Below, in pieces: positions 21,214 through 42,561 of a stretch of 64,000 nt of DNA (positions are counted from its first letter, which is position 1; each line of letters opens with the position of its first letter). The DNA lies in the IMG/VR virus record IMGVR_UViG_3300034198_011471, positions 1 through 64,000 of that record; one strand, 5' to 3'. Source of the stretch: a virus. A program made the translations under genes and the position numbers. The notes below the pieces were generated by a model. It saw nothing but the letters and a program-made list of their open reading frames with translations, did no database searches and had not been told where the DNA came from.

Positions 21214-21271
21214 ATAACCTCCAAAAAGTACGCGGCCGGGTCACCGTTTAGTATACCCGGACGCGCACCCA

Positions 21272-21436
21272 TCACTTGCGAGTCGTTTCTTTGGCGGCGG
21301 CAGCTGCAACCTGACACATGTAACCTAGTACATTTGCCAGCCCAGCAAGACCGTATATGAAAACATGCCCTGTGTATTTGAGGCTGTCTTCAACCCATTG
21401 AAATTCTGACTCGCTACCGTTGTTATTGTGGTTCAT
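21272..21436 (-). CDS. 54-residue membrane micropeptide, divergent to terminase
   Basis: The frame on the minus strand from ATG 21436 reads MNHNNNGSESEFQWVEDSLK, then a hydrophobic helix (YTGHVFIYGLAGLANVLGYM) and a basic end. It fills an otherwise empty stretch between the terminase and the next leftward gene, and its ATG overlaps the terminase ATG (CATG). Composition is protein-like. No strong SD is seen (weak AGG). Function unknown. Confidence 0.5.
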   Translation of the reverse strand: MNHNNNGSESEFQWVEDSLKYTGHVFIYGLAGLANVLGYMCQVAAAAAKETTRK

Positions 21437-23351
21437 GGATAAACCTAATCAAACAGTTACTGAAGCAGTTGACATGCCTTCCGTAGGCGTGCAATCACTT
21501 CTACAAGAATTAATCTCAATCGACGTGACGGATGTACATTCTGTTCACGCGCGAGCGGCTGTTTTGCAGCAGCTCGCCGGTCGGCATGCTTTCCCGTCAC
21601 TGGAACCGATTTTACCGCTAGTTCTGAATCTTAACGGGCGCCCGTACAGCATTCAGAATCATATGCCTTTTTCCCCACTTTTCCGGCTACTGACGCCGAA
21701 AAATCAAGTGTGGTGCACGGGGCGGCAGGTATCAAAATCGACCAGCCTAGCAGCGCACGGAGTTGTAGTTGCCAACTCTCTCCCGTTTTTTAAGACGTTA
21801 TTCATCACACCGCTGTACGAACAGATACGGCGGTTTTCGAATAACTATGTGCGTCCGTTTATCGACCAGTCTCCTGTGAAGTCGCAATGGAGCGGCACGA
21901 CGACCGAGAATTCAGTTCTGCAAAGATCTTTTAAGAACAATTCAATGATGTTGTTCAGCTTTGCGCTTTTAGATTCGGATCGTGTGCGCGGTGTTTCTGC
22001 AGACCGTGTGTGTATCGACGAAGTTCAGGACATGGATCCTGATCACGTGCCGATCATTCAAGAAACGATGTCTTACTCCAAATGGGGGACTAGTTATTAC
22101 ACAGGAACGCCGAAGACGCTAGATAATTTAATTTACGGATTGTATAAACGATCATCACAAGCCGAGTGGTTTATACCGTGTCATTCATGCAAGCACTGGA
22201 GCATCCCTTCGCTTGAATATGACTTGGACAAAATGATCGGCCCATACAGCGTGCATATCAGCGAGAAGTATCCGGGCACCGTCTGCGCTAAGTGTCAGAA
22301 ACCGATCAGCCCAAGGCATGGTCGGTGGGTGCACAGATATCCCGAACGCCGCTGGCAATTTGCCGGGTATCACGTACCACAGATGATACTACCGCTTCAT
22401 TTCTCCGACCCTGAAAAGTGGTCAACTCTATTGTTGAAAAGAGAAGGGTTTGGGAACATGACCCAAGCCCAGTTCTACAACGAAGTAATGGGAGAAAGCG
22501 TTGATACCGGTCAGAAGCTCATCAGCGAAACTGATTTGAAGGCTGCGTGCGTGCTAGACTGGGAAAACAAGAAAGAACCAGACCCTAAGTGCTTTGCAAA
22601 TCTCTCGAACTACAAACATCGCATCCTTGCGGTCGACTGGGGCGGCGGCGGAGAAGCAGGTATTAGTTTCACCGTGCTTGCTGTGCTGGGGTTCCGCCCG
22701 GACGGGACCGTCGACACGCTTTGGGCCAAGCGCCTGCTTATTGGCGGCGATCATTTGGCCGAAGCTGTTGAATGTATGCGCTGGTCTAACTTGTTTAATT
22801 GCGATTTTGTTGCTCACGATTACACGGGTGCCGGCACGGTCCGCGAAACGGTCATGGTGCAGGCAGGATTTAATCTAGAGCGAGTCTTGGCGATGCGGCT
22901 CGTTCGTTCCGCATCGCAAGATTTGATGGTGTTCAAACCACCGACAGAGATCAATCATCGGGCACACTATAGCCTCGACAAAACGCGGTCGTTGCTGTAC
23001 ACGTGTCAGGCGATCAAGCTGAAGCAAGTCCGTTTCTTCCAGTACGATTGGTCGTCACAGGATTCGCCGGGCTTGGTGTCGGACTTTCTTGCGTTGGTAG
23101 AAAGTAAAGCCGAGTCTAGACTAGGCGGCGATATTTATACCATTACAAGGAACACGTTGTTGACTGACGACTTCGCGCAAGCTGTTAACCTAGGCTGCGC
23201 CGCTCTTTGGCACGTGAATAACGCGTGGCCTAATTTCGCGGAGATCGCTGGCGTAGCGCGGTTAAGCGAGCGTGTTGTCAAAGCCGAGACGCCGATGGAT
23301 GACGACTGGGCGGATGACTCCATCGGGCGAAGCTACTTTGGCGGTTACTAG
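21435..23351 (+). CDS. terL: terminase large subunit
   Basis: A 638-residue protein read from ATG 21435 (the frame is open from TTG 21420). ATPase part: Walker A-like CTGRQVSKST (94-103, deviating from GKT/S but usual for TerL), Walker B VCIDE (192-196, D195/E196), coupling motif TGTPKT (223-228). Two CxxC pairs, C249/C252 and C284/C287, form a zinc insert. Nuclease part: AVDWGGGGE with catalytic D401, and HDYTGAG (D462), plus a late acidic segment DDFAQAV. It packages DNA into capsids as ATPase motor and endonuclease. Unusually it lies alone on the plus strand among minus-strand genes. Confidence 0.93.
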   Translation: MDKPNQTVTEAVDMPSVGVQSLLQELISIDVTDVHSVHARAAVLQQLAGRHAFPSLEPILPLVLNLNGRPYSIQNHMPFSPLFRLLTPKNQVWCTGRQVSKSTSLAAHGVVVANSLPFFKTLFITPLYEQIRRFSNNYVRPFIDQSPVKSQWSGTTTENSVLQRSFKNNSMMLFSFALLDSDRVRGVSADRVCIDEVQDMDPDHVPIIQETMSYSKWGTSYYTGTPKTLDNLIYGLYKRSSQAEWFIPCHSCKHWSIPSLEYDLDKMIGPYSVHISEKYPGTVCAKCQKPISPRHGRWVHRYPERRWQFAGYHVPQMILPLHFSDPEKWSTLLLKREGFGNMTQAQFYNEVMGESVDTGQKLISETDLKAACVLDWENKKEPDPKCFANLSNYKHRILAVDWGGGGEAGISFTVLAVLGFRPDGTVDTLWAKRLLIGGDHLAEAVECMRWSNLFNCDFVAHDYTGAGTVRETVMVQAGFNLERVLAMRLVRSASQDLMVFKPPTEINHRAHYSLDKTRSLLYTCQAIKLKQVRFFQYDWSSQDSPGLVSDFLALVESKAESRLGGDIYTITRNTLLTDDFAQAVNLGCAALWHVNNAWPNFAEIAGVARLSERVVKAETPMDDDWADDSIGRSYFGGY

Positions 23352-26332: not shown

Positions 26333-28966
26333 TTATCCAGTTTCCCGGGCAAGGTCAGCTGCAGGTAACAAGTATTGATCGCACCAACTGCTGTCAACAA
26401 GAATGCCCGGCAGGTTGCGCACAGCTTCCTCTCCGCCGAAAACTCCGCGACGCGTCAATAGTTTAACAAGCCAAAGCCAGTTTGGGGCTAGCGCTTTTCT
26501 ATCATAAAAATAGCGATTGACGGCGCGCTGATTCAACCACCAATGTGTTTTTTTACGCACAATGTAGTTATTGGGTTGGCCGACTTTTCGCGCCCGGGGC
26601 AGAACCGCGAGCGCGCCGGTTTGAATGGCATTTGTTAACTCCGCAAAAAACGACAAATCGGCCTCGTTTTGCGTGGTTAATTGTTTGCGCGCATAGTCGA
26701 GCTGGAACGCGCTGCCGTACGTTTCTTGCAGCCAGTCGTGTAGGTCGGCAAGTACGGCCAAGGCAGTTACCGAGTCCGTTAGGCTAATCCGCATTCGTTG
26801 ACGCATTGCACGCTGAATGTAGCCCGGCAAGATATACGCCAGCGGGGTAAAGTCGGTTTTAGGGTCTGCGTAGCCGTTGATAGTCTGCCAACCGTACATC
26901 GGCGCGATGGCTGCGGCGGTGGGAGCCAAATGCAAAAGTACGGGGCGGTTATGACAACGCGGGATCGTCAGGCTCAGACTGGTCGCGTCGAACACGCTAG
27001 CAACAGTTGTTGGCCACGCCAACTCTGCCGTGCGTGAGTACACCGCAGAACTGGCGGATGCGCGGTGCAGGATATCAATACGCTGGTGCGGGCAGCCAAG
27101 GACTGGCGCAATTTGTTGTACCACGACAAAACTATCGCCGGTAAAACCAGTAGCAACTGGATCACGGCGCAGTATTGGGTCCACGAGATTGGCAATGACG
27201 GCGGCCGCAACGGTCCAGACAAAAGCATTTTCTTGACTGGGCGTTAAAAACTGCCGTATCGCCGGCGGGGCGACTGCAACAGGCTCTGGGAATACAGCGT
27301 GTTTGTTTTTTTCACTCGATTGATTTGGCGGTGACGGTGTGCCGTCTGCGGCTAGTTCGTAGTTTGCAAAACGAAACACGCTTGCGCGCTCGTCCCATCC
27401 TAGCCTGTTTGATACGCATACCAACTCTGGTTTGCTCAGGCCGATGGCCAGCAGGTGGCTTCTGCTATTCCACCGACTGTCGTACAGCATCACTTTTTTG
27501 TGGGACGCAACGACACTAGCCGCGAAGGCCAGCAGCCCGGCGCGTTCAATCTTGAAAGCGTTATCGGCAAAGTTAATTTCTTCGCCGTTGAGGTAGATCG
27601 TACCGGCATATGTTTTTTCGCCGTCGTCGGCTTGAGTGATTTTATTGATAACAATGTTGGCGTCACAAATGTGCTGATTTGTGACGCTCCACCAACCGTC
27701 TGCTTTTGGAATGACAGTATGGCGCCACGGCTGTGATGTCGTCGGGGTAATGTGCTTAGAAGTCTTGACATGCGTCAATACCCGATCTGAAAAACCGGGA
27801 GAAAAATTACTGCCAATTTTGTTCAAAAACGGCACTAACTTGTCTGGCGGTATCGTAAGTCGCGTCGCAAACGAATGCGCCGCAATTTCATTTATCTGCC
27901 CCAGCGTGCTGCTCAGCCGGCTTTGCCATGTTTCTGCGTTGCTGCGAATCGAAACTAGCCGCGTCATGGCGTCTGTGGCGAGCCTATTTTTTACTCGTTG
28001 ATTTTGCGTTACTATTGCCACGTAGCCGCGGGCATTAGCGACCCTGCTAATTAGTTCCGGCGAAATAATGTGGCTCTGGAAGATTCGCGGCACTGGCGCA
28101 AATGAACACCAGCTGCCGCCCCAGCTGTTTGCCTCGACGCCGGTGTAGCTCGCCATTACCGGCAGCAGCGACAACCCGTGGCGTAGCATTTCACACTGCA
28201 TACTCAACGCCCACATCGGATCGTCTACTACAAACTGTGTGCTTTTTAGCGGCGCGACAGCGGGAAGAAGCGCCGCGCGCAGTAGAAAGTAACCAGCTTC
28301 TGGTCGGCTGCGTTTGTACTGGTTGAGCGAGATAAAGTTTTGTTTGGCCGTAAATTGCTCGTCGTACTGCACAATTAAGACGCCGGTTATACGCCCGGGC
28401 AGATCGTAATACGGAAACACAAGGCTTGCGCCGTTTTCTCGTATGGGGCTAATCAGCGGCCGGCGCACGAATCGCTGGAGCGTATCTATTTGTTCTTTGT
28501 ACGCCACGCCGACCAATCCGGCCGCATCTATTTCTTGATGTACGCCCAACTCGCGTAGGCGGCAGGCAATAACATCGTCGTGGTGGCCCCAGATTTGCGC
28601 TTCGGCGTCAAACCAAAACTGCTCAAATTTTTCAAAGCGTTCAATAGCTCGGGCGTATTCGGCGACGGCATTGTCTTTTTCAGCTGGGTTTATGGCGTTT
28701 AACTCGATAAAACGGCTAATTGCCACATCGGGGCTTGTATTCCATAATGCCGCGCCAAACGTTATGATATCTCCATGGGCTGAGCACGAATTACAGTGTA
28801 GCCAGATACCGTTAGTGCTTGTGTCGTCGAATAGGTGTAGCGTATTTTTTTGACATAGCGGACAACTGACGACCGCCGGGAAAACCAACTGGTCCGGCGC
28901 AATGCCCAGCGCCGACAGGGCAATCGCGTGGTGTTGGCGGCCAATTAAACAGGTAGGAAATCCCAT
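26333..28966 (-). CDS. primase-like protein with CHC2-type zinc domain and degenerate helicase region
   Basis: An 877-residue protein. N-terminus: zinc motif C35-P-L-C38 with C58-N-S-C61 and H64, then a helix in GDIITFGAALWN, as in DnaG/primase-helicase CHC2 domains. Then a primase-core-like segment (ENGASLVFPYYDLPGRITGV; a TOPRIM-like FVVDDPMWALSMQCEMLR). The C-terminal half has a helicase-like arrangement, but at the expected P-loop it reads GFTGDSFVVVQQIAPVLG instead of G..GxGKS. Probably primes phage DNA synthesis, with a vestigial helicase. Its ATG overlaps the divergent plus-strand ATG (CATG). SD weak. Confidence 0.65.
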   Translation of the reverse strand: MGFPTCLIGRQHHAIALSALGIAPDQLVFPAVVSCPLCQKNTLHLFDDTSTNGIWLHCNSCSAHGDIITFGAALWNTSPDVAISRFIELNAINPAEKDNAVAEYARAIERFEKFEQFWFDAEAQIWGHHDDVIACRLRELGVHQEIDAAGLVGVAYKEQIDTLQRFVRRPLISPIRENGASLVFPYYDLPGRITGVLIVQYDEQFTAKQNFISLNQYKRSRPEAGYFLLRAALLPAVAPLKSTQFVVDDPMWALSMQCEMLRHGLSLLPVMASYTGVEANSWGGSWCSFAPVPRIFQSHIISPELISRVANARGYVAIVTQNQRVKNRLATDAMTRLVSIRSNAETWQSRLSSTLGQINEIAAHSFATRLTIPPDKLVPFLNKIGSNFSPGFSDRVLTHVKTSKHITPTTSQPWRHTVIPKADGWWSVTNQHICDANIVINKITQADDGEKTYAGTIYLNGEEINFADNAFKIERAGLLAFAASVVASHKKVMLYDSRWNSRSHLLAIGLSKPELVCVSNRLGWDERASVFRFANYELAADGTPSPPNQSSEKNKHAVFPEPVAVAPPAIRQFLTPSQENAFVWTVAAAVIANLVDPILRRDPVATGFTGDSFVVVQQIAPVLGCPHQRIDILHRASASSAVYSRTAELAWPTTVASVFDATSLSLTIPRCHNRPVLLHLAPTAAAIAPMYGWQTINGYADPKTDFTPLAYILPGYIQRAMRQRMRISLTDSVTALAVLADLHDWLQETYGSAFQLDYARKQLTTQNEADLSFFAELTNAIQTGALAVLPRARKVGQPNNYIVRKKTHWWLNQRAVNRYFYDRKALAPNWLWLVKLLTRRGVFGGEEAVRNLPGILVDSSWCDQYLLPAADLARETG

Positions 28967-30140
28967 GACAAATATCCCGCTCGATCAAGCGCATGACGTC
29001 AGCGGCCGCGAGACACACAGGCTGACGACTCTGTACCCGCAACCTGACTTTGTAAAAAATGCCGCGGATGAAAAATTAAGCGGCGCTGCGGATTTACCTC
29101 GTCATCTGTACGCTGATCAGCGCCATAAACTTTATCCGTGCCATACAGCCCCTGCAACATGGATGTCCGCGCTTTTCTTTGCTGACAAGCAAGCGCAGTT
29201 TGACGCCAAAGAGGCCGCGGCTATTCAATCTAGGATACACCAAACTGCCGAATATTTCGGTATTCGCGGGGCTGTGGCGGAACTGGAAGAAAAGATTGCG
29301 GCCAGCGCTACACAGGATATTAACAGCCTACCGGACTCTGAATTTGCTATCGTCTGGGTCAGCGATGTGGGCGGCAAGGAGCGCCACTGGCCGCTGCGCA
29401 ACGCCGGGGAGGTCAAATTTGCCGCCGCGCACTTTAAAACGTTCCGCGACAACTTCGTCTTCGAAGACCGCCACGTAATTGCCACAAAGATCCTCGAAAA
29501 GGCCGCGCAGTACAGCGCAGACGTTTCGGGGGCAGAGGGCTCGCTAGAGCTAGCGGCGGGGCTTGGCGCCTGCGCGGCTAAGGTAGCGAGCGACATGATC
29601 AAAGACCGCGTACGGCTTACCAGTCGGCAGCACACGCAGCTGGCGAGTGAGTTGTCAAAGTTAGCAGAAGCGGTTGACCAGAACCCCGAGAGGGCGCGTA
29701 CGGTCGACATGCGGCTAAAGTTGGCGAGCGCGGTCGATAATTTCGATAGGAGCACGCAGCTCTATCGACTCTACGACGCCGGCGGATTACCGCGGCCGGA
29801 AGAGGTCTTGTTTGCGATCACCGAAAAGGTGGCGCGGGACTTCATGGCGCAGAACGTCGAAACCACTACGGGCAACGTATACGCTCTCGACGACCTTGAG
29901 AAGCTAGCCGTTGACGATGTACGCGAGTGGCTTGGCGACGACTTTGCTGACGCGGTAAGCGCCGGCGGCGTGTACATGGACCGCAGCAAGCTGGCAGCGA
30001 TTGTTCCCACGCTCGACCGCGGTATGGCAACTATGCTGGACCGGCTCATGTCCGACAAGAGCGCCAGCGCTGTCGTGAAGTCAGCGTCAGCGGACAATCT
30101 GCTTTCGCTTGAGCGCCTTCGCGAGCTTGCGAGGGGCTGA
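28965..30140 (+). CDS. hypothetical protein, plus-strand island gene
   Basis: A 391-residue protein with ATG 28965 and AGGA about 7 nt upstream. Ala-rich and helical throughout (AAIQSRIHQTAEYFGIRGAV; TSRQHTQLASELSKLAEAVD; GVYMDRSKLAAIVPTLDRGM). Contains a segment reading EFAIVWVSDVGGKERHWPLR that suggests a small beta domain. No known family; size, helicity and gene position suggest a structural or scaffold-like role, but this is inference. 54-nt tail-to-tail overlap with the next minus-strand gene. Confidence 0.75.
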   Translation: MTNIPLDQAHDVSGRETHRLTTLYPQPDFVKNAADEKLSGAADLPRHLYADQRHKLYPCHTAPATWMSALFFADKQAQFDAKEAAAIQSRIHQTAEYFGIRGAVAELEEKIAASATQDINSLPDSEFAIVWVSDVGGKERHWPLRNAGEVKFAAAHFKTFRDNFVFEDRHVIATKILEKAAQYSADVSGAEGSLELAAGLGACAAKVASDMIKDRVRLTSRQHTQLASELSKLAEAVDQNPERARTVDMRLKLASAVDNFDRSTQLYRLYDAGGLPRPEEVLFAITEKVARDFMAQNVETTTGNVYALDDLEKLAVDDVREWLGDDFADAVSAGGVYMDRSKLAAIVPTLDRGMATMLDRLMSDKSASAVVKSASADNLLSLERLRELARG

Positions 30141-30572
30141 GGCTTTTTTCTTCTTACGCGGAGCCGGGCCGAACAACGACTTAATATGTCGGAGTACGGC
30201 CGCTTCGCGCGTACGTTTGTAGTTTACATTGTCCCACGCTTGGTCGGCGTGTTCGACACCGCGGCGCGCGGCCTCGACGTCGTGGATAAGGCTGTAGTCC
30301 GGGTTATACCACTTAAATCCGCGACCCTTGCCTTTGTTCCATCTAAAGTCTGCTACTGATATCTCGTAGACGGTGTGCGTTACGGTGTCGAGAATTATTT
30401 GCGCAGTGCATTTAAACTCTCGTGGTTTGTTCGGCAGCCGGATAGTCGCGTCAAGTATTTGCGCGTTGTTGCCGTAACAAGCCCAGCAGTACGCGGCGCT
30501 ATCGGTTATCAGAAAGCGACAAGCGTTAAAAAAGCGATTAACCCGCAACGCGCCACAGTGATCAAATGTCAT
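30087..30572 (-). CDS. hypothetical protein, convergent to plus-strand gene
   Basis: A 161-residue protein: ITDSAAYCWACYGNNAQILD (a Cys-x-x-Cys), ILDTVTHTVYEISVADFRWN, KGRGFKWYNPDYSLIHDVEA, and a lysine-rich C-terminus (RKKKKASAPRKLAKALKRK). Could bind nucleic acid. ATG overlaps the upstream stop (ATGA). Unknown family. Confidence 0.6.
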   Translation of the reverse strand: MTFDHCGALRVNRFFNACRFLITDSAAYCWACYGNNAQILDATIRLPNKPREFKCTAQIILDTVTHTVYEISVADFRWNKGKGRGFKWYNPDYSLIHDVEAARRGVEHADQAWDNVNYKRTREAAVLRHIKSLFGPAPRKKKKASAPRKLAKALKRKQIVR

Positions 30573-30994: not shown

Positions 30995-31666
30995 TCATGA
31001 TGTGGCTGAACCTTGTAACATTTTTACGACATACTCCGTGTTGCCGTTTTTAAGGTCCAGTGCGGCCATTTGTTTAATAAGTAAACCAGTCTTCAATCGA
31101 ATCGACTGATTGATGTCTTCTGTCTTTCCCGTCTCAAAATCGTAGACCGCGTTAAACATCGTCGGGTCATCTGAGAAATCTGTAATGTTATGGCTGACCC
31201 GCGCGGCCCTCAACGCGATACGCAAAATGTCAGGGGCGTTAATGATTCCCTCGCTGTCCAGCACGGCGCCAATGTAACCGCGCACTTCGTCGGTGAACGG
31301 TTCTTTATCGTCGTCCTCTGGCGGGCTGATCAGCAGCGCTTCGGTAATACCCCACGCAACTTCTTCGGCGTCCGCGGGGTCCCACATATCTGGGCGGTAT
31401 GTGTCACCGCCCAGCACGTTGCAGAACGTCACAAAGTCCGGCAGGCTTTTGAAAAACTTGTCGGTCGTGAGGATCTGAATCGCGACTAGCAGCTTGTCGA
31501 GCGCCAGTTGGGGTAGCTCGACGTCAAACTCCTCTTCGATTTCGAGGGTGATCGTCGACGGGTCCCAATCCAGCGCCTCGATGCCGAACTTATCCAGAAA
31601 CAGGGTCAGTAGGACGCTCGCAAACGTCTCCCTGCTTTTCCACGCTTCCTGCGCTATTGTTGCCAT
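30995..31666 (-). CDS. hypothetical protein
   Basis: A 223-residue acidic helical protein (MATIAQEAWKSRETFASVLL). Contains WDPSTITLEIEEEFDVELPQ and FVTFCNVLGGDTYRPDMWDP, and a helical end with IRLKTGLLIKQMAALDLKNG. Overlaps the upstream gene by 77 nt. The size and repeated appearance beside a paired second protein suggest a morphogenesis or replication accessory role, but no family is recognised. Confidence 0.55.
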   Translation of the reverse strand: MATIAQEAWKSRETFASVLLTLFLDKFGIEALDWDPSTITLEIEEEFDVELPQLALDKLLVAIQILTTDKFFKSLPDFVTFCNVLGGDTYRPDMWDPADAEEVAWGITEALLISPPEDDDKEPFTDEVRGYIGAVLDSEGIINAPDILRIALRAARVSHNITDFSDDPTMFNAVYDFETGKTEDINQSIRLKTGLLIKQMAALDLKNGNTEYVVKMLQGSATS

Positions 31667-32150
31667 TGAGTCCGGCCCTGCTCTTGATGATCTGCACGCC
31701 CCGGCGGTACAGCTCACTCAGATTATACGCTATCGTCTCCAGCGGACGGCGCGGGAGAAAATCGCATTTCTCGCCGGACTCTAGCGAAATCCAGCCCATC
31801 GCGCCAGTCCATGTGACGTGCCGGCCGTCCGCAAACGCGAGCGTGGCGGAGCAGTCACCTTGGATATCTTCGATGGGCAGGTCCAGCTCTTGTCGAGTCT
31901 GGCGCAGCAGTTCTCCGATCATCAGCCGCTGTTCGCTCGACAAGAAATTTAGGTTCTCCAACATATCGGCAAGCAGCAAATAAAACACCGCTTCCGTATT
32001 GACAATCATTGCCGGGCTATACGTCCACTGGCGTCTTAAAACGTTCGTAAAAACGTTGCGAATTTGCAACTTGCTAAGTTTCATGACCTGCATTACCATA
32101 TCGAGCGTCAGGTCTACTTTTTCTTCGGAGGTATCTATGTCCGTTTCCAT
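31590..32150 (-). CDS. hypothetical protein
   Basis: A 186-residue protein beginning METDIDTSEEKVDLTLDMVM, with helical QVMKLSKLQIRNVFTNVLRR, WTYSPAMIVNTEAVFYLLLA and FLSSEQRLMIGELLRQTRQ. Then a beta region (FADGRHVTWTGAMGWISLES). SD AAAGG about 9 nt before the ATG at 32150. Overlaps the divergent plus-strand start by 14 nt. Function unknown. Confidence 0.6.
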   Translation of the reverse strand: METDIDTSEEKVDLTLDMVMQVMKLSKLQIRNVFTNVLRRQWTYSPAMIVNTEAVFYLLLADMLENLNFLSSEQRLMIGELLRQTRQELDLPIEDIQGDCSATLAFADGRHVTWTGAMGWISLESGEKCDFLPRRPLETIAYNLSELYRRGVQIIKSRAGLNGNNSAGSVEKQGDVCERPTDPVSG

Positions 32151-32415
32151 TATCGACAACCTTTCTAATATCACGCAGGGCCGAGCTGAGATTATCGTCA
32201 GTGCCGATGGTATCGAGGAACTGCTGTCGGCTGCAACTGCCAACGTCGTGCTGCAGAAGGCAGCGGAAGCCGGCCTGCACCGACCGGGCGTGTCCAGCGC
32301 GAGCGGGCCTTATCCGGTTGACGCCGACGGCAAGACCGACGACGAGCTGATGATGGGCAAGCGCGGGCCGGTTGTCGGCTACCGCCGAGATTTTGTTATC
32401 TTGGCGTCGCTCTGA
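32137..32415 (+). CDS. small plus-strand island gene
   Basis: A 92-residue protein: MSVSIIDNLSNITQGRAEII, VSADGIEELLSAATANVVLQ, KAAEAGLHRPGVSSASGPYP and a basic end (MGKRGPVVGYRRDF). ATG has GGAGG 5 nt upstream, one of the best SDs in the window. Divergent from, and overlapping by 14 nt, the next minus-strand gene. No family recognised. Confidence 0.65.
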   Translation: MSVSIIDNLSNITQGRAEIIVSADGIEELLSAATANVVLQKAAEAGLHRPGVSSASGPYPVDADGKTDDELMMGKRGPVVGYRRDFVILASL

Positions 32416-35533: not shown

Positions 35534-36757
35534 CTACGACTGCGCGGCGGCTTTAACGGCCGCTCTGAGTGTCGCGTTTGTTTGCAGTTCGGCGATAAGC
35601 TGACTAAGCGTTAATTCGCCGTGTGGCCCTGTCGGCCCTGTTGCGCCCATGTTGCCGCACGGCCCGGTAGCGCCGGTATGGCCGACGCCTGTCGCCCCAG
35701 TGGCCCCACGCGGCCCTGACGGCCCTGTTACGCCGCGAGGTCCTGTGGCGCCTTGAATACCGGTAGCCCCGGCGGCGCCGCGTGAGCCGCGTGCGCCGGC
35801 TGGGCCAGATTGACCCTGCGGCCCCTGAGCACCCTGCGGCCCGGCGTTACCTTGCGGACCCATCAAACCCTGTGGCCCAATTAATCCCTGCGGCCCTTGC
35901 GCGCCTTGCGGCCCGCGGTCACCCTTGGGCCCTGTCTGACCTTTAGGTCCGGTTGCTCCGGTCGCGCCGATACCCCCGGTGGCCCCTGTGGCGCCATCAA
36001 TGCCGTTTTTACCGGCCGGGCCTGTCGGGCCTGTCGGGCCTGTCGGGCCTTTTGGTCCGGTGGGCCCTGTAGATCCGCGCGGCCCGGTCGCGCCTGTTGC
36101 GCCTGTGGCCCCGCGCGGTCCCGTAGGTCCTGTTGCGCCCGTAAAACCTACTGCGCCCTGCGGACCAGTTGCGCCACGAGGACCCGTGGGGCCGATTTTT
36201 CCCGTCGGTCCAGTTGGACCCGTTGCGCCTTTTTCGCCTTTATCGCCTTTATCGCCTTTATTGCCTTGCGGGCCTCGCGGGCCTGTCATGCCAGTGGGGC
36301 CTTTATCTCCTTTATCGCCTTTTTCTCCTTTATCTCCTTTGTCGCCTTTTTCTCCTTTATCGCCTTGCGGGCCCGGCATGCCGATAGCGCCTACGGGTCC
36401 TTGAATACCCATGTCGCCTTTTTCGCCTTTTTCGCCTTTATCGCCTTTATTGCCTCTTTCTCCGCGATCACCTTTATTGCCTTGATCGCCTTTTTCGCCT
36501 TTTTCGCCTTTATCGCCTTTGTCGCCTTTGCTGCCTGTGTCGCCTTTGTCACCTTTGTCGCCGCTATCGCCCTTGTCGCCATCGTCTCCTTTATCGCCGC
36601 TATCGCCCTGCGGACCCGGCGAACCTTGCGGGCCCGGCGGTCCGGGTTCTCCCCGCGGCCCGGGCGGACCGGGCGTACAGCCGCTTGACGAGAGTTTTGG
36701 TCCCTCGTACGGAACAAACTCAATTTCGTTGTCGTTGCTATTAAAAGGCGCAGTCAT
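35534..36757 (-). CDS. collagen-like tail fibre/adhesin protein
   Basis: A 407-residue protein. Residues 1-25 are a short unique head ([20 protein letters not shown]), residues ~26-375 are Gly-X-Y triplets, first rich in GDKGDKG/GEKGEKG, later in GPTGPTG/GATGATG, then a GPCGNMG break and a ~35-residue C-terminal tail ending [11 protein letters not shown]. Collagen-like triplets trimerise into a stiff rod. The tail is a likely cap. It shares a 65-bp identical DNA stretch and the same tail type with the giant adhesin upstream. Surface binding is probable. Confidence 0.85.
35625..35689. repeat. 65-bp repeat, copy 1
   Basis: Identical over 65 bp to 36982-37046, encoding the [22 protein letters not shown] region of both collagen-like proteins. 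Synonymous-site identity implies recent duplication or gene conversion. Confidence 0.9.
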
Positions 36758-36758
36758 G

Positions 36759-39700
36759 TTATGTATTTAGTGCTGCACGCACGGCGGCGCGAAGATTTGT
36801 GTTAGTGTTTAATTGCGCAATAAATTCAGTTAAAAACGCCGGCGAGCGCACAATTTCTGCAATATTCAACGTGATATTTCCGTTAATATTTGTCGTATTT
36901 ACAGTGATTGTACCGCTGCCGATGTTTGTCGGCGTAAATGTAATTATACCGTTTGCCGGTATGACACCTGTTGCGCCCTGCGGCCCTGTCGGCCCTGTTG
37001 CGCCCATGTTGCCGCACGGCCCGGTAGCGCCGGTATGGCCGACGCCGCTAGCGCCTGTAGCGCCTGTTACACCGGTTGCGCCTCTTGGGCCGACAGGTCC
37101 GGTGGCTCCGCGAGGACCGGTGACGCCAGTCGCGCCTGTTTGGCCGCGCGGGCCTGTCGCACCCTGCGCGCCGTTTGTGCCGGATAAACCAGCTGGGCCA
37201 GTTGCACCAGTTGCGCCGACAGGCCCGGTAACGCCCGTCGCGCCTGTTGCGCCTGTGGCCCCGCGAGGGCCAGTGACGCCGGTTGCGCCAGTGATTCCGC
37301 GGGGTCCGACGGGACCGGTGGCACCCGTAGCGCCGACAGGCCCGGTAACGCCCGTCGCACCAGTTGGACCCGTTGCGCCGACGGGGCCCGTAGCTCCGCG
37401 GGGTCCGGTAGGTCCTGTCGGACCGCTTGGTCCTGTAACGCCGTTAATACCAGAGGCGCCGGTTGCGCCTGTTTGTCCAACTGGACCTGTTGCGCCGCGA
37501 GGTCCTGTGGCACCTGTTGCGCCTTTAGCGCCGGTCGGGCCAGTGGCTCCGCGAGGTCCTGTGGCGCCAGCCGGCCCGGTCGCGCCTGTGGCGCCTTTAT
37601 CGCCTTTGTCGCCCTTAACGCCTGTAGCGCCTGTTACGCCCTTAACGCCTGTGGCGCCAGCCGGCCCGGTCGCGCCTGTGGCGCCTTTATCGCCTTTGTC
37701 GCCCTCGTCTCCTTTATCGCCTTTCAACCCCATCGGACCGAATAATCCCATTGGTCCTTGCGGGCCAATTGGACCAGCGTTGCCTATGTCGCCTTTATCG
37801 CCTTTGTCGCCTTGATTGCCTTGATTTCCCTTGTCACCCTTGAGTCCCTGTGGACCAATAATTCCCGGGGCGCCTTGAACGCCGGGAATTCCTTGTATAC
37901 CTTGATTTCCTTTTTCACCTTTTTCGCCGCGGTCGCCTTTATCGCCTTTTTCGCCTTTGCTGCCTGTGTCGCCTTGCGGCCCCGGATCACCCTGCGAACC
38001 TTGAGGGCCGGCTGGGCCAGCCGGTCCCTGCGCGCAACTACCTCCGCTGCCACCAGAACCGCCGCTACCAGAGCCGCCGCTACCAGAGTCGCCGCTACCA
38101 GAGTCGCCAGTCGGGCATTCAGTGGTGTTTAATGTTATTGTAATGGCGATATTTTCGCCTGATATGTCGACCGTTCCGCAACCAATACCTTCCGGCAAAA
38201 TTGTGACCGAGCCAGTTGTGAGTTTGCATTGCGGAATCCATAAATACGGCGTGAGTTTAAATTTGCAGTCGCCAAGATCCTCGACCATGATCTCTGCGCG
38301 ACCCTCGGTCTCGCACGACACCAGCAGAACGCGGCCTTCGCCACCCTCGATTGACGGTTCGCAGTGCGGAACGCCTAAGTCAACATTGATAGTGTAGAAG
38401 CATTCGGACGGCTCGTCTGTTCCGGTGCCGCCACTAGTGCCGCCACTAGTTTGCGTTGGGGTGACAGAACCAGACCCGTACAACGTAGATGCTTTTTCTA
38501 CATTAACGACGATATCAATTTGCGGACAAGGCGCTGGCGCACACTTTGGAATCCAGATATACGGTGTGATTTTAAATTCACAGAGATCTATCTGTTCAAC
38601 AAAAATCTCGGCGCGCGCGTCAATTCCGCAGCCCGTAAGCGCCGTGCCGACGCCGCCAGTAATTTTTGGCATGCACGGCTTCGGTATGCCGATGTGGAGC
38701 GGCAGCGTGACGTCGCAAAAATCCCCGGGTTCAAATTCATTTATGGGCTGGCCGGCATACGCGTACGGTTCTTCTTGCGCGTCCAGTGTTTGCAGCTCAA
38801 CAACCATTGAAACGGTTGTGCACGGCGGTTTTGGAATTTTGATGTCGAGCGCAAAATCTATTTCAAAACAGCACACCGGCGGTTCGTTGGACCCGACGCG
38901 CTCGTCGTATTCAGAGCATTTTGTGATTTCAAAACGAAACTCTGGCTGGATGTCGTAGCCCACCTCGTGCTTGAGTTCTTTAATCCGTAATTCTGTACAA
39001 GGCGGGCGGGGCGTGGGAATGTCAACGTGAATATCAAACAGATAGTTACACGAGCCCGGGTCGTCGCATGTTGGCGGCGTCGGCATTGGGCGAATAACAA
39101 AAAAGCTGGGCGTATTATTTAAACGCCCGCCGGGCCCGTCTTTGTAGTGGCTGTTGACAGTTAAAAACTGCAACAACTCCGGGCAGCGTGGTTGCGGGAT
39201 CGGCACGACAATTTCAATTTCAATTTCAAAATCGCACCGCTCTGGTTGGTCGCAGCCGGATGCCGGCGTGACGGTTTTTGTAATTTCAAAGCGGGACTGA
39301 CCGCTAACGCAACTTGTGCCGGCAAAGCCTGTTTTGACGTCAAACAGTTTCTTGGTGATTTCAATGCAGGGCGGCGGCGGGATTGGTACGACAATTTCCA
39401 GCTCGATGTCAAAATCGCACTGATCTGGCGTATCGCAATCGCCCGGGGTGACGCGCGAGGTGACGTCAAAACGATTTGATTTATTCTGCACGCATGGCGA
39501 ATCATTAAAACCGGTTAAAACTTCAAACGTTTTAATGTTGATGTTAGGGCACGGCGGTTTTGGAATTGGAATATCGATTGTTAGTTCGATATCAAATTCA
39601 CACGTATCCGGCGTATTGCAATCGCCCGGCGTGACACGCGGAGTGATTTCAAATTTTGAATCGCTAGTCGAACATGTCAGGTCGTCGTAGTGCACCTTGA

Positions 39701-41327
39701 CGTCAAAGACAGGTGGATTAATTGACGGGCAGGGGGTGCGCGGAATGGGCACCAAAATTGAGAGGTCAATTTCAAATTCGCACTGGTCTGGTGTGTTGCA
39801 GTCACCGGGCGTGCGTTTTGATGTTATTTCAAATATCGAACCACCTTGCGCGCACGGCGAGTCGCTGAACCCGGTTGTAACCTCAAATTTTTTAGTGCTG
39901 ATTACTGGGCACGGTGTGCGCGGAATCGGTACGACAATCTCTAGCTCAATATCAAAGACGCATTGATCGGGGTTGTTGCAGTCTCCCGGAACGTGATTGG
40001 TGGTAATTTCAAATGTCGAACCACCTTGCGCGCACGAAGAGTCGCTAAACCCCGTCGTGACTTTGAGCACCGGCGAATTAATAATCGGACACGGCACGCG
40101 AGGAATTGGAATAACAATCTCTAGCTCGATATCAAATTCGCATTGACCGGAACTATTGCAGTCGCCGGGGGTGTGGTTGGTTTTGATCTCAAATTTATTG
40201 TCGCCCGGCAGACACCCGGAATCTCCATACCCGCTTGTAACAGTCAGCTTTGGTTGGTTGATAATTGGACACGGCGCGCGCGGAATAGGTATGACAATTT
40301 CAAGTTCAAAATTGAATTCGCACTGATCGGGGTTGTTGCAGTCTCCCGGAACATTGTTAGTCGTGATTTCAAAACGATTTGTACCAGTGAGGCAGCCGGT
40401 ATCGTCATAGCCAGACGACACAGATAATTTTGGCGCGTTAAGAGTTGGGCAGGGCGTACGCGGAATCGGTACAACAATTTCTAGCTCAACGTCAAACTCG
40501 CAGCGGTCGGCGGTATTGCAGTCGCCGGGAGTGTGCCGCGGAGTGATGCTGAAAAAGTTCTGCTTGTCGTCAAGGCATGACGAATCAGAAAACCCACTGT
40601 CAACAGAAAACTTTGTCAGGTTGATAGTCGGGCACGGCGGCCGCGGAATCGGTATTGCAATTTCTAACTCGACTTCGAAACGACACTGGTCGGCTGTGTC
40701 GCAATCGCCCGGCGTAATAATTTGCTCAATTGTTAATTTGTTTTGCTTGTCTAGCATGCACGGGGAATCTGAGTACCCCGAGTGCACGCCAAAATCAGTA
40801 ACGATGATTTGAGGACACGGCGGTTTTGGTACTGGTATCTTGAGATCAAGATCAATAACAAACTCGCACTGGTCGGGTGTGGTGCAATCGCCGGGTGTGA
40901 TGATCGGCGTAATCTTAATTTCGCTCAGCGGCGCAATACAATCCTGATAACCAACTTCTAATCCGAACTCGCCGGCTGTAAGCGTCGGGCAAGGTGTGCG
41001 CGGTACCGGCACATTGATATCTAAGGTGACGTCGTAACGGCACGGGTCGATATCTTGTCGCGTGATCTTCAGTTCGTTTTTAGGCGGCGGGCAGCCATCG
41101 TCGCCGGCGTCGCCGACAAAGCTGACGTCAATCGACGTCAAAGTCGAAAAATCAGGGCAGCGGTTGCCAACTTCTGTCGGTGGTTCGCGCGGAATGATCG
41201 GCGCCTGACAGCCGAAGATCGGCGGCGGAAGCGGTTCGATTTCGCAGACTGACGAAATGAAATCGAAATCTACCTTTGGGGTAGGATCGATCGGGCACTG
41301 CGAGTCTTTGAAAAGATTGTCAGGCAT
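36759..41327 (-). CDS. giant tandem-repeat plus collagen-like adhesin
   Basis: A 1522-residue protein from ATG 41327. Residues ~50-700 are about 11-12 tandem copies of a ~60-residue unit with consensus 'vPIPR(T/P)PCP..n..kF.V.sGf.DS.C...', then 'FeIT...[20 protein letters not shown]'. Further degenerate units run to about residue 1040. A Gly/Ser linker ([18 protein letters not shown]) leads to collagen Gly-X-Y triplets (about 1080-1440), the GPCGNMG break, a beta segment rich in Asn/Thr and a C-terminal cap ([11 protein letters not shown]). Likely a long fibre or surface adhesin; several Cys per repeat suggest disulphides or metal. No known family for the repeat. Confidence 0.8.
36982..37046. 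repeat. 65-bp repeat, copy 2
   Basis: Second copy of the 65-bp identical stretch at 35625-35689, here in the giant adhesin gene, again encoding the Cys-bearing collagen break. Confidence 0.9.
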
Positions 41328-41328
41328 G

Positions 41329-42561
41329 TTACGTGCAATTAATTTGTGCGTTGGGTTTCTTCTGTACCGTGATCGTTCCATCGTCGATCAGGATGTTGAT
41401 GCCCGCGCCGCCAATAATGTTGACATTAGAGCCGCCGACGCCATTGATGGCAGAAATAAGCTCACAACATGCTGGCCCGCCACTTAAAAATTTGTCAATT
41501 TGTTCAATCTCTGTCGGCATTTTTTCTGGAAAATCTTGCCAAGCCGATGCCGGCCAATTTGTGACACCCGCAGGCGGCGAACCATACCACATATAATTAA
41601 ACGTTGTGTGCGTTTCTACCCATGTCTTATTGTTCCATGTGTAGTAAATGACATTTTTATGCTGACAAAGTCGTGGAGGTAAAGGGCCGCAAGACGGATT
41701 GACCGGCGTAGGCTCTGACGCCCAGCCGTACGTGTCGCCGGGCATGGCGCGTCCGCAACCCGGCAGAGTAGAACTGTCAGGTGTCGCGACCACGTCTATG
41801 AACTGCGTTGCAATTAATTTTTTTGCCCCGGCGTCTTTTGCAAATAACGGAAGTTCACCGCTATTTGAACATAGCTCTGCGCTAGTTGATCCTGCGCCCG
41901 CGCCTTTAGCTGCGGTGACAGACAATTCGTTCGCGCGATCTGTTTGCGTAATTAGGCAGTTATAACCTTCCTTGAATCGAATGTCGCCCTTCATACAGCG
42001 CGAATTTAACACGATCGGTCGGTTGTCGTTTGTCCCTGTCTGGTCGCACGGCGGAACACGTACGCGGTCGTAGTTACCGACGCTGATTGACCGCAGATAC
42101 GCCTTGTTTAAGTTTTGAATGCGCCCCGGTTCAACCTGATAGTCGTTCGGCTGTAACGCCCATACACCGTTAACCGCAGCGTCATTAAACGCGGTTGTCA
42201 GCGCTTCCAACGGGCCAGTCACGAGAAAGCCAGACCAGATCGGCTCTTCGGCGCACGGGTTTTCCGTGTCGACTGCGGACTCACTGTGTTCAAGTGCCCA
42301 CTCCCCGGTATCGTGTCGAGTAAAAGAGACTGTAGCCGGCGACGCGTTTGTGCTAAACACAAACTCAAATAAGCTGCCTACTTTTTTTACCGCTGACAGC
42401 CAAATTGTATGTTCGCTCTCGTCATACCGGGCGTCGAGGCCCATAATGAACCCTGCGTCCAGTACCGCGCTTGTGGGTAGCGGCGGAAGGGTGGCTGGTT
42501 TGTTGTAGATAAACGGATACGCGCGGTATTCGTTATCGTTGTAAAATCCGGGACGAGGCAT
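41329..42561 (-). CDS. fibre-family protein with N-terminal 'YP' motif
   Basis: A 410-residue protein beginning [20 protein letters not shown]. The short motif AYPF near residue 14-17 matches RSYPL, RRYPL and SRYPF in the next three paralogues. The middle is beta-rich; [19 protein letters not shown] and a C-terminal Gly/Asn/Ile segment ([20 protein letters not shown]) suggest a fibre shaft or knob. Probably a tail-fibre subunit attached through the N-terminal motif. Confidence 0.6.

Follow-up and report, generated by a model that had tools for sequence, protein, structure and literature searches.

What keeps two genes that run in opposite directions joined at their very first nucleotides? We address this question for a locus within a window of 64,000 nucleotides, taken from a 76,643-base virus record (IMGVR_UViG_3300034198_011471), where a primase gene on the minus strand and a gene for a 391-residue protein on the plus strand start inside one and the same palindrome, CATG. 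Divergent start overlaps are the rarest class of gene overlap, which is thought to be due to promoters and ribosome-binding sites having to fit inside the partner gene. Here, we propose that the two genes are an ancient head-to-head pair, in which the plus-strand gene forms a transcription unit of its own within a minus-strand array and the seam is locked by mutually embedded signals. This reading, which we consider likely, is built on the observed layout, its conservation among relatives, the codon constraint, and the position of a terminator.

The start-to-start seam and its two genes

The seam occupies positions 28964-28967 and gives the two genes a coding overlap of 2 nt (AT). The primase starts at the ATG at 28966-28964, and a search of its reading frame in the window for an in-frame alternative start upstream found none. 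The plus-strand reading frame runs from the ATG at 28965 to its end at 30140; a further in-frame ATG, upstream at 28902, is found in the closest relatives only, and for this reason we take 28965 as the conserved start. The sequence agrees with the original prediction of a CATG start overlap between these two genes, of a 54-nt convergent overlap after the plus-strand gene (30087-30140), and of another CATG seam in the same genome (21434-21437, between terL and a minus-strand open reading frame of 54 residues). As a base rate for divergent seams we use a published prokaryote figure, which is not phage-specific: among 14,958 overlaps from 58 prokaryote genomes, 331 are divergent, and only 57 of these are shorter than 5 nt (PMC2174442).

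The minus-strand gene (26333-28966) encodes a protein of 877 residues with a zinc ribbon (CPLC...CNSC), whose cysteines are invariant, together with DnaG-like and helicase-like folds. Foldseek searches with a model of the protein matched 1dd9 (1.8e-4), 5w33 (1.8e-5), and 8dvf_H from the T4 primosome (1.6e-6), with further matches to 8tch and 5dgk; the model resembles the DnaG catalytic core, the T4 primosome, and the SaPI Rep and SCC Cch replication helicases. The label “primase-like” that the gene had been given from sequence is right at the level of the fold. Although the zinc ribbon and fold are common to the DnaG-type and T4 primases and the SaPI Rep and SCC Cch helicases, the window's protein is too distant for matches above the cut-off in Pfam or PHROG. 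In its C-terminal helicase-like part, a recognisable Walker A lysine is absent by eye (ATGFTGDSF), which suggests a degenerate ATPase. In a 144-kb contig the primase is split (L005, 7373-10002), with a first frame of 317 residues and the rest in another frame; this is a frameshift or an assembly error.

The plus-strand gene (28965-30140) encodes a protein with a weak DUF6582-like region at residues 48-100. Against DUF6582 the window's protein scores 14.4 bits, below the Pfam cut-off of 27.3, and weak matches are found in 23 of 38 family members (best E-value 1.2e-5). Comparison with the PDB by sequence and fold gave no convincing match, and the only fold matches are to the uncharacterised protein A0A1B1IUL4, at 44% identity, and, weakly, to one protein of a phage. 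A search for relatives in 50,697 phage records and in GTDB genome contigs found none.

Related contigs reach about 205-226 kb, and the window covers part of a genome from a phage lineage of about 200 kb, which belongs to a large, uncultured family of giant phages. In a 205-kb relative (G001), about 222 of the 226 genes called by our simple script lie on one strand, with the 391-residue gene inverted. The inverted genes common to the window, G001, and another relative (G002) are terL, the 391-residue gene, and a gene of 92 residues, out of about 226 genes. In a distant relative with 69% GC (G003), one strand carries 55 of the 58 homologues, and terL and the 391-residue gene are inverted again; the orientation there rests on homology because self-trained gene calls are unreliable in that genome. 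Gene packing is tight, with about 90% of the sequence coding and many -4 and -1 junctions.

Conservation of the seam and signals inside the partner gene

All 81 contigs that encode the plus-strand protein, at 34-97% identity, carry its gene head to head with the primase, and the opposite arrangement was not found among the contigs examined. Tallied by hand, the gap is -2 (CATG) in 60 contigs, +1 in 15, +2 in three, and other in three, which puts 78 of the 81 in the range from -2 to +2 nt; these counts overstate independent events since the loci are related by descent. In the first 40 distinct loci, except those of the type of L051 and L052, the seam is CATG with both frames starting there, and it persists despite varying N-terminal lengths. 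The +1 type is CAC-N-ATG, with a GTG start for the primase, and it is the form used by distant groups in a contig set at 34-43% identity. Profile comparison identifies the minus-strand partner as a true homologue of the primase both in L053 and in L051 (E-values of 1.7e-28 and 1e-17). The other arrangements are those of L139, L152, and L162; a flush seam is not essential, since the gap is 28 nt in L139 and 19 nt in L152.

Each gene's start region also carries a match to a ribosome-binding site for its partner. The Shine-Dalgarno sequence of the plus-strand gene, AGGTAGGA (28951-28958, plus strand), lies inside primase codons 3-6; a match of at least 4 nt is present in 37 of 39 seams, with a spacing that fits the plus-strand start. 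Synonymous constraint, measured as codon identity beyond amino-acid expectation and tested against the 95% permutation maximum, is highest in primase codons 1-11 (an excess of 0.33 against a maximum of 0.185), directly over this site, and the proline codon there is CCT in 31 of 31 cases. For the primase, a weak Shine-Dalgarno-like GCGGGA (28975-28980, minus strand) lies inside codons 4-6 of the plus-strand gene, and a weak match of at least 3 nt is present in 36 of 39 seams (random 27%). No stretch of the plus-strand gene showed synonymous constraint beyond chance, and hence nothing points to a primase promoter within it.

A second block of the primase, codons 61-71, likewise exceeds the 95% permutation maximum. 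The block is sharply bounded: codons 66-68 read TATGAT on the plus strand, the isoleucine codons ATC and ATA are each kept in 34 of 36 cases, and the adjoining threonine codon is variable. On the strength of this constraint, we regard GTTATGATATCTCC (28761-28774, plus strand, inside primase codons 65-69) as holding a candidate -10 element of the plus-strand gene, TATGAT at 28763-28768. Of 43 core loci, 41 carry the hexamer, in each case some 185-215 nt upstream, and one core locus without it has GATAAAAT in its place; it is absent from distant groups, and a consensus -35 for it was not found. Two other possibilities were set aside, a promoter-like TTGCCA-17-CATAAT at 28720-28748, whose -10 is unconserved among relatives, and a general role for TATGAT as a promoter motif of the phage, since its extended form occurs in a single copy in the window.

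The convergent overlap and the other inverted genes

At its 3' end, the plus-strand gene overlaps by 54 nt (30087-30140) a minus-strand gene of 161 residues (30087-30572) that is well conserved only near the window. A predicted intrinsic terminator of the plus-strand gene (30107-30151, plus strand; -23.7 kcal/mol, with a TTTTTTCT tail) lies across this overlap; the hairpin spans the stop codon, and the T tract runs on beyond both the stop and the overlap. In the 161-residue gene, which ends inside the plus-strand gene, this T tract encodes a lysine-rich stretch of the protein. Of 38 core loci, 13, the window among them, have a plus-strand hairpin with T tail after the plus-strand gene (random control 10.5%), and no more than about 10 of the 38 have a strong one, while a minus-strand terminator at the same junction is found in none of the 38 (random control 2.6%). 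In the distant set, terminators follow the plus-strand gene on the plus strand in 3 of 27 loci and on the minus strand in none of 27. A genome-wide terminator scan to separate the strands proved too noisy and was dropped.

Overlaps of 54-66 nt with the 161-residue gene occur in close relatives of the window only; elsewhere in the family, the 3' neighbour of the plus-strand gene differs or a gap is present. Given this restricted occurrence, the start overlap and the convergent overlap are unrelated in age and cause, and the 54-nt overlap is, as judged from the family comparison, a separate, lineage-specific trait. In one relative (L003, 7049-8632), a minus-strand gene of 375 residues lies between the plus-strand gene and the 161-residue homologue, with a short C-terminal stretch common to both, and looks as if inserted at the overlap.

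The terminase large subunit gene, terL (21435-23351, plus strand; phrog_675, 2.5e-54; PF05876, 3.5e-13), stands head to head with the 54-residue minus-strand reading frame (21272-21436). In each of the 31 resolvable loci this seam is flush, as CATG in 13 and CATATG in 18, two states between which only the gain (by duplication) or loss of AT is needed. The state changes about five times on the tree, or perhaps fewer, given weakly supported branches. terL is flush at both ends, its stop codon and that of the next minus-strand gene falling in a common palindrome, CTAG (23348-23351). About 180-200 nt upstream of terL lies an intergenic element (21231-21262) with a near-invariant CACCGTTTAGTATAC in pairing flanks that seem to covary among relatives; in other relatives the element is a palindrome, GTATACTG..CAGTATAC, which is possibly a bidirectional promoter.

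The third conserved inverted gene (92 residues; 32137-32415, plus strand) has a strong Shine-Dalgarno sequence, GGAGGT. In the window it has no CATG, the nearest well-conserved minus-strand ATG being 37 nt away; in about half of the relatives, its start is a CATG in frame with the homologue of the minus-strand gene at 31590-32243. It abuts the next minus-strand gene stop to stop as TGATCA. Further along, two neighbouring collagen-repeat proteins resembling tail fibres (407 and 1540 residues) occupy 35534-41381. A fixed genome-wide rule of CATG seams was rejected, given the CATATG form at terL and the third inverted gene of the window.

Explanations for the flush seam and known systems

In light of these observations, how might the seam be kept? 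In the ancient pair that we propose, the promoter of the plus-strand gene would lie inside the primase coding region, its ribosome-binding site in primase codons 3-6 and its start in the common CATG, and its transcription would end at its own terminator just past the stop codon. The primase would be transcribed by minus-strand read-through, antisense across the plus-strand gene. The near-zero gap is probably retained because each gene embeds control signals in the other: substitutions in the A or T would destroy both starts, and insertions would upset the spacing of both ribosome-binding sites. Compactness would also be greatest with a flush seam. The convergent overlap would be younger, the adjoining minus-strand gene having come, near the window, to end inside the plus-strand gene and across its terminator.

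The presence of two CATG seams in one genome had originally been taken to suggest a mechanism or selection rather than chance. Such a mechanism would make CATG the scar or site of a recombination that flips single genes, a notion to which two palindromic seams in one genome lend some appeal but which we find hardly credible: inverted repeats flanking 28965-30140 were searched for and not found, the orientation is identical in every contig, terL seams also read CATATG, the third inverted gene of the window does without CATG, and distant groups have CAC-N-ATG. Selection fares better, as far as the flush start-to-start seam is concerned, for this seam holds over 34-97% protein identity and the plus-strand ribosome-binding site falls where codon constraint in the primase is strongest. 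Sequence comparison thus supports selection for a flush seam and leaves a CATG-specific inversion mechanism unsupported. It is also very unlikely that either start has been wrongly assigned and the palindrome is a coincidence; a C precedes an ATG by chance about 1 time in 4 and the primase Shine-Dalgarno match is weak, but most members lack an upstream start for the primase, the seam is retained in both frames over 60 contigs, and the Shine-Dalgarno spacing fits the plus-strand start.

Pure compaction or inertia would have the pair inherited flush and left unchanged, the embedded signals following from the lack of a spacer and antisense transcription having no regulatory role. The tight packing of the genes and the ease of passing from CATG to CATATG at terL agree with such an account; nevertheless, we think it unlikely, as the seam remained flush even where N-terminal lengths changed and identity fell to 34-37%, in contrast to a freely changing 3' junction, and the conserved -10-like element is more than inertia would leave. 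We are also doubtful of an excludon, in which a plus-strand 5' leader of about 190 nt would be antisense to the primase start, primase read-through would be antisense to the whole plus-strand gene, and late plus-strand transcription would shut off the early primase. If both genes are transcribed as we infer, the geometry requires complementary RNAs over both gene starts, yet on sequence evidence an excludon is indistinguishable from a plain overlap. More improbable is a conserved early-late switch, with a late plus-strand RNA from inside the primase gene blocking primase translation, a read-through primase RNA antisense to the late gene, and a start overlap that would place both ribosome-binding sites in one duplex, only one being usable at a time.

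We therefore return to an ancient pair locked by its mutually embedded signals, whose seam is an extreme case of a known compact gene arrangement and not a new inversion mechanism. The pair offers a clean test, set by nature, of the extent to which opposed genes can have signals in common, with comparative codon use locating an embedded ribosome-binding site and a likely promoter. A rare class of overlap has here endured in a lineage whose proteins have diverged to about 35% identity, which also gives gene callers grounds for accepting start-to-start overlaps in phages.

In the noncontiguous operon, known from bacteria and phages, a single gene is transcribed against its surrounding operon and overlapping RNAs are expected (PMC7154746). 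The geometry of the window is the same, with the 391-residue gene opposed within a co-directional array, but here the start codons overlap and the layout is kept lineage-wide, with transcription across the plus-strand gene that would follow from read-through. Excludons are opposed neighbour genes with transcripts that overlap in antisense (PMC7154746), as those of the present pair would. A further likeness in layout is to the short divergent overlaps of prokaryotes, which are head to head with a start-to-start overlap of less than 5 nt (PMC2174442). Whereas those are rare, with 57 in 58 genomes, the seam described here is nearly fixed over deep divergence, and its embedded signals are located by codon constraint.
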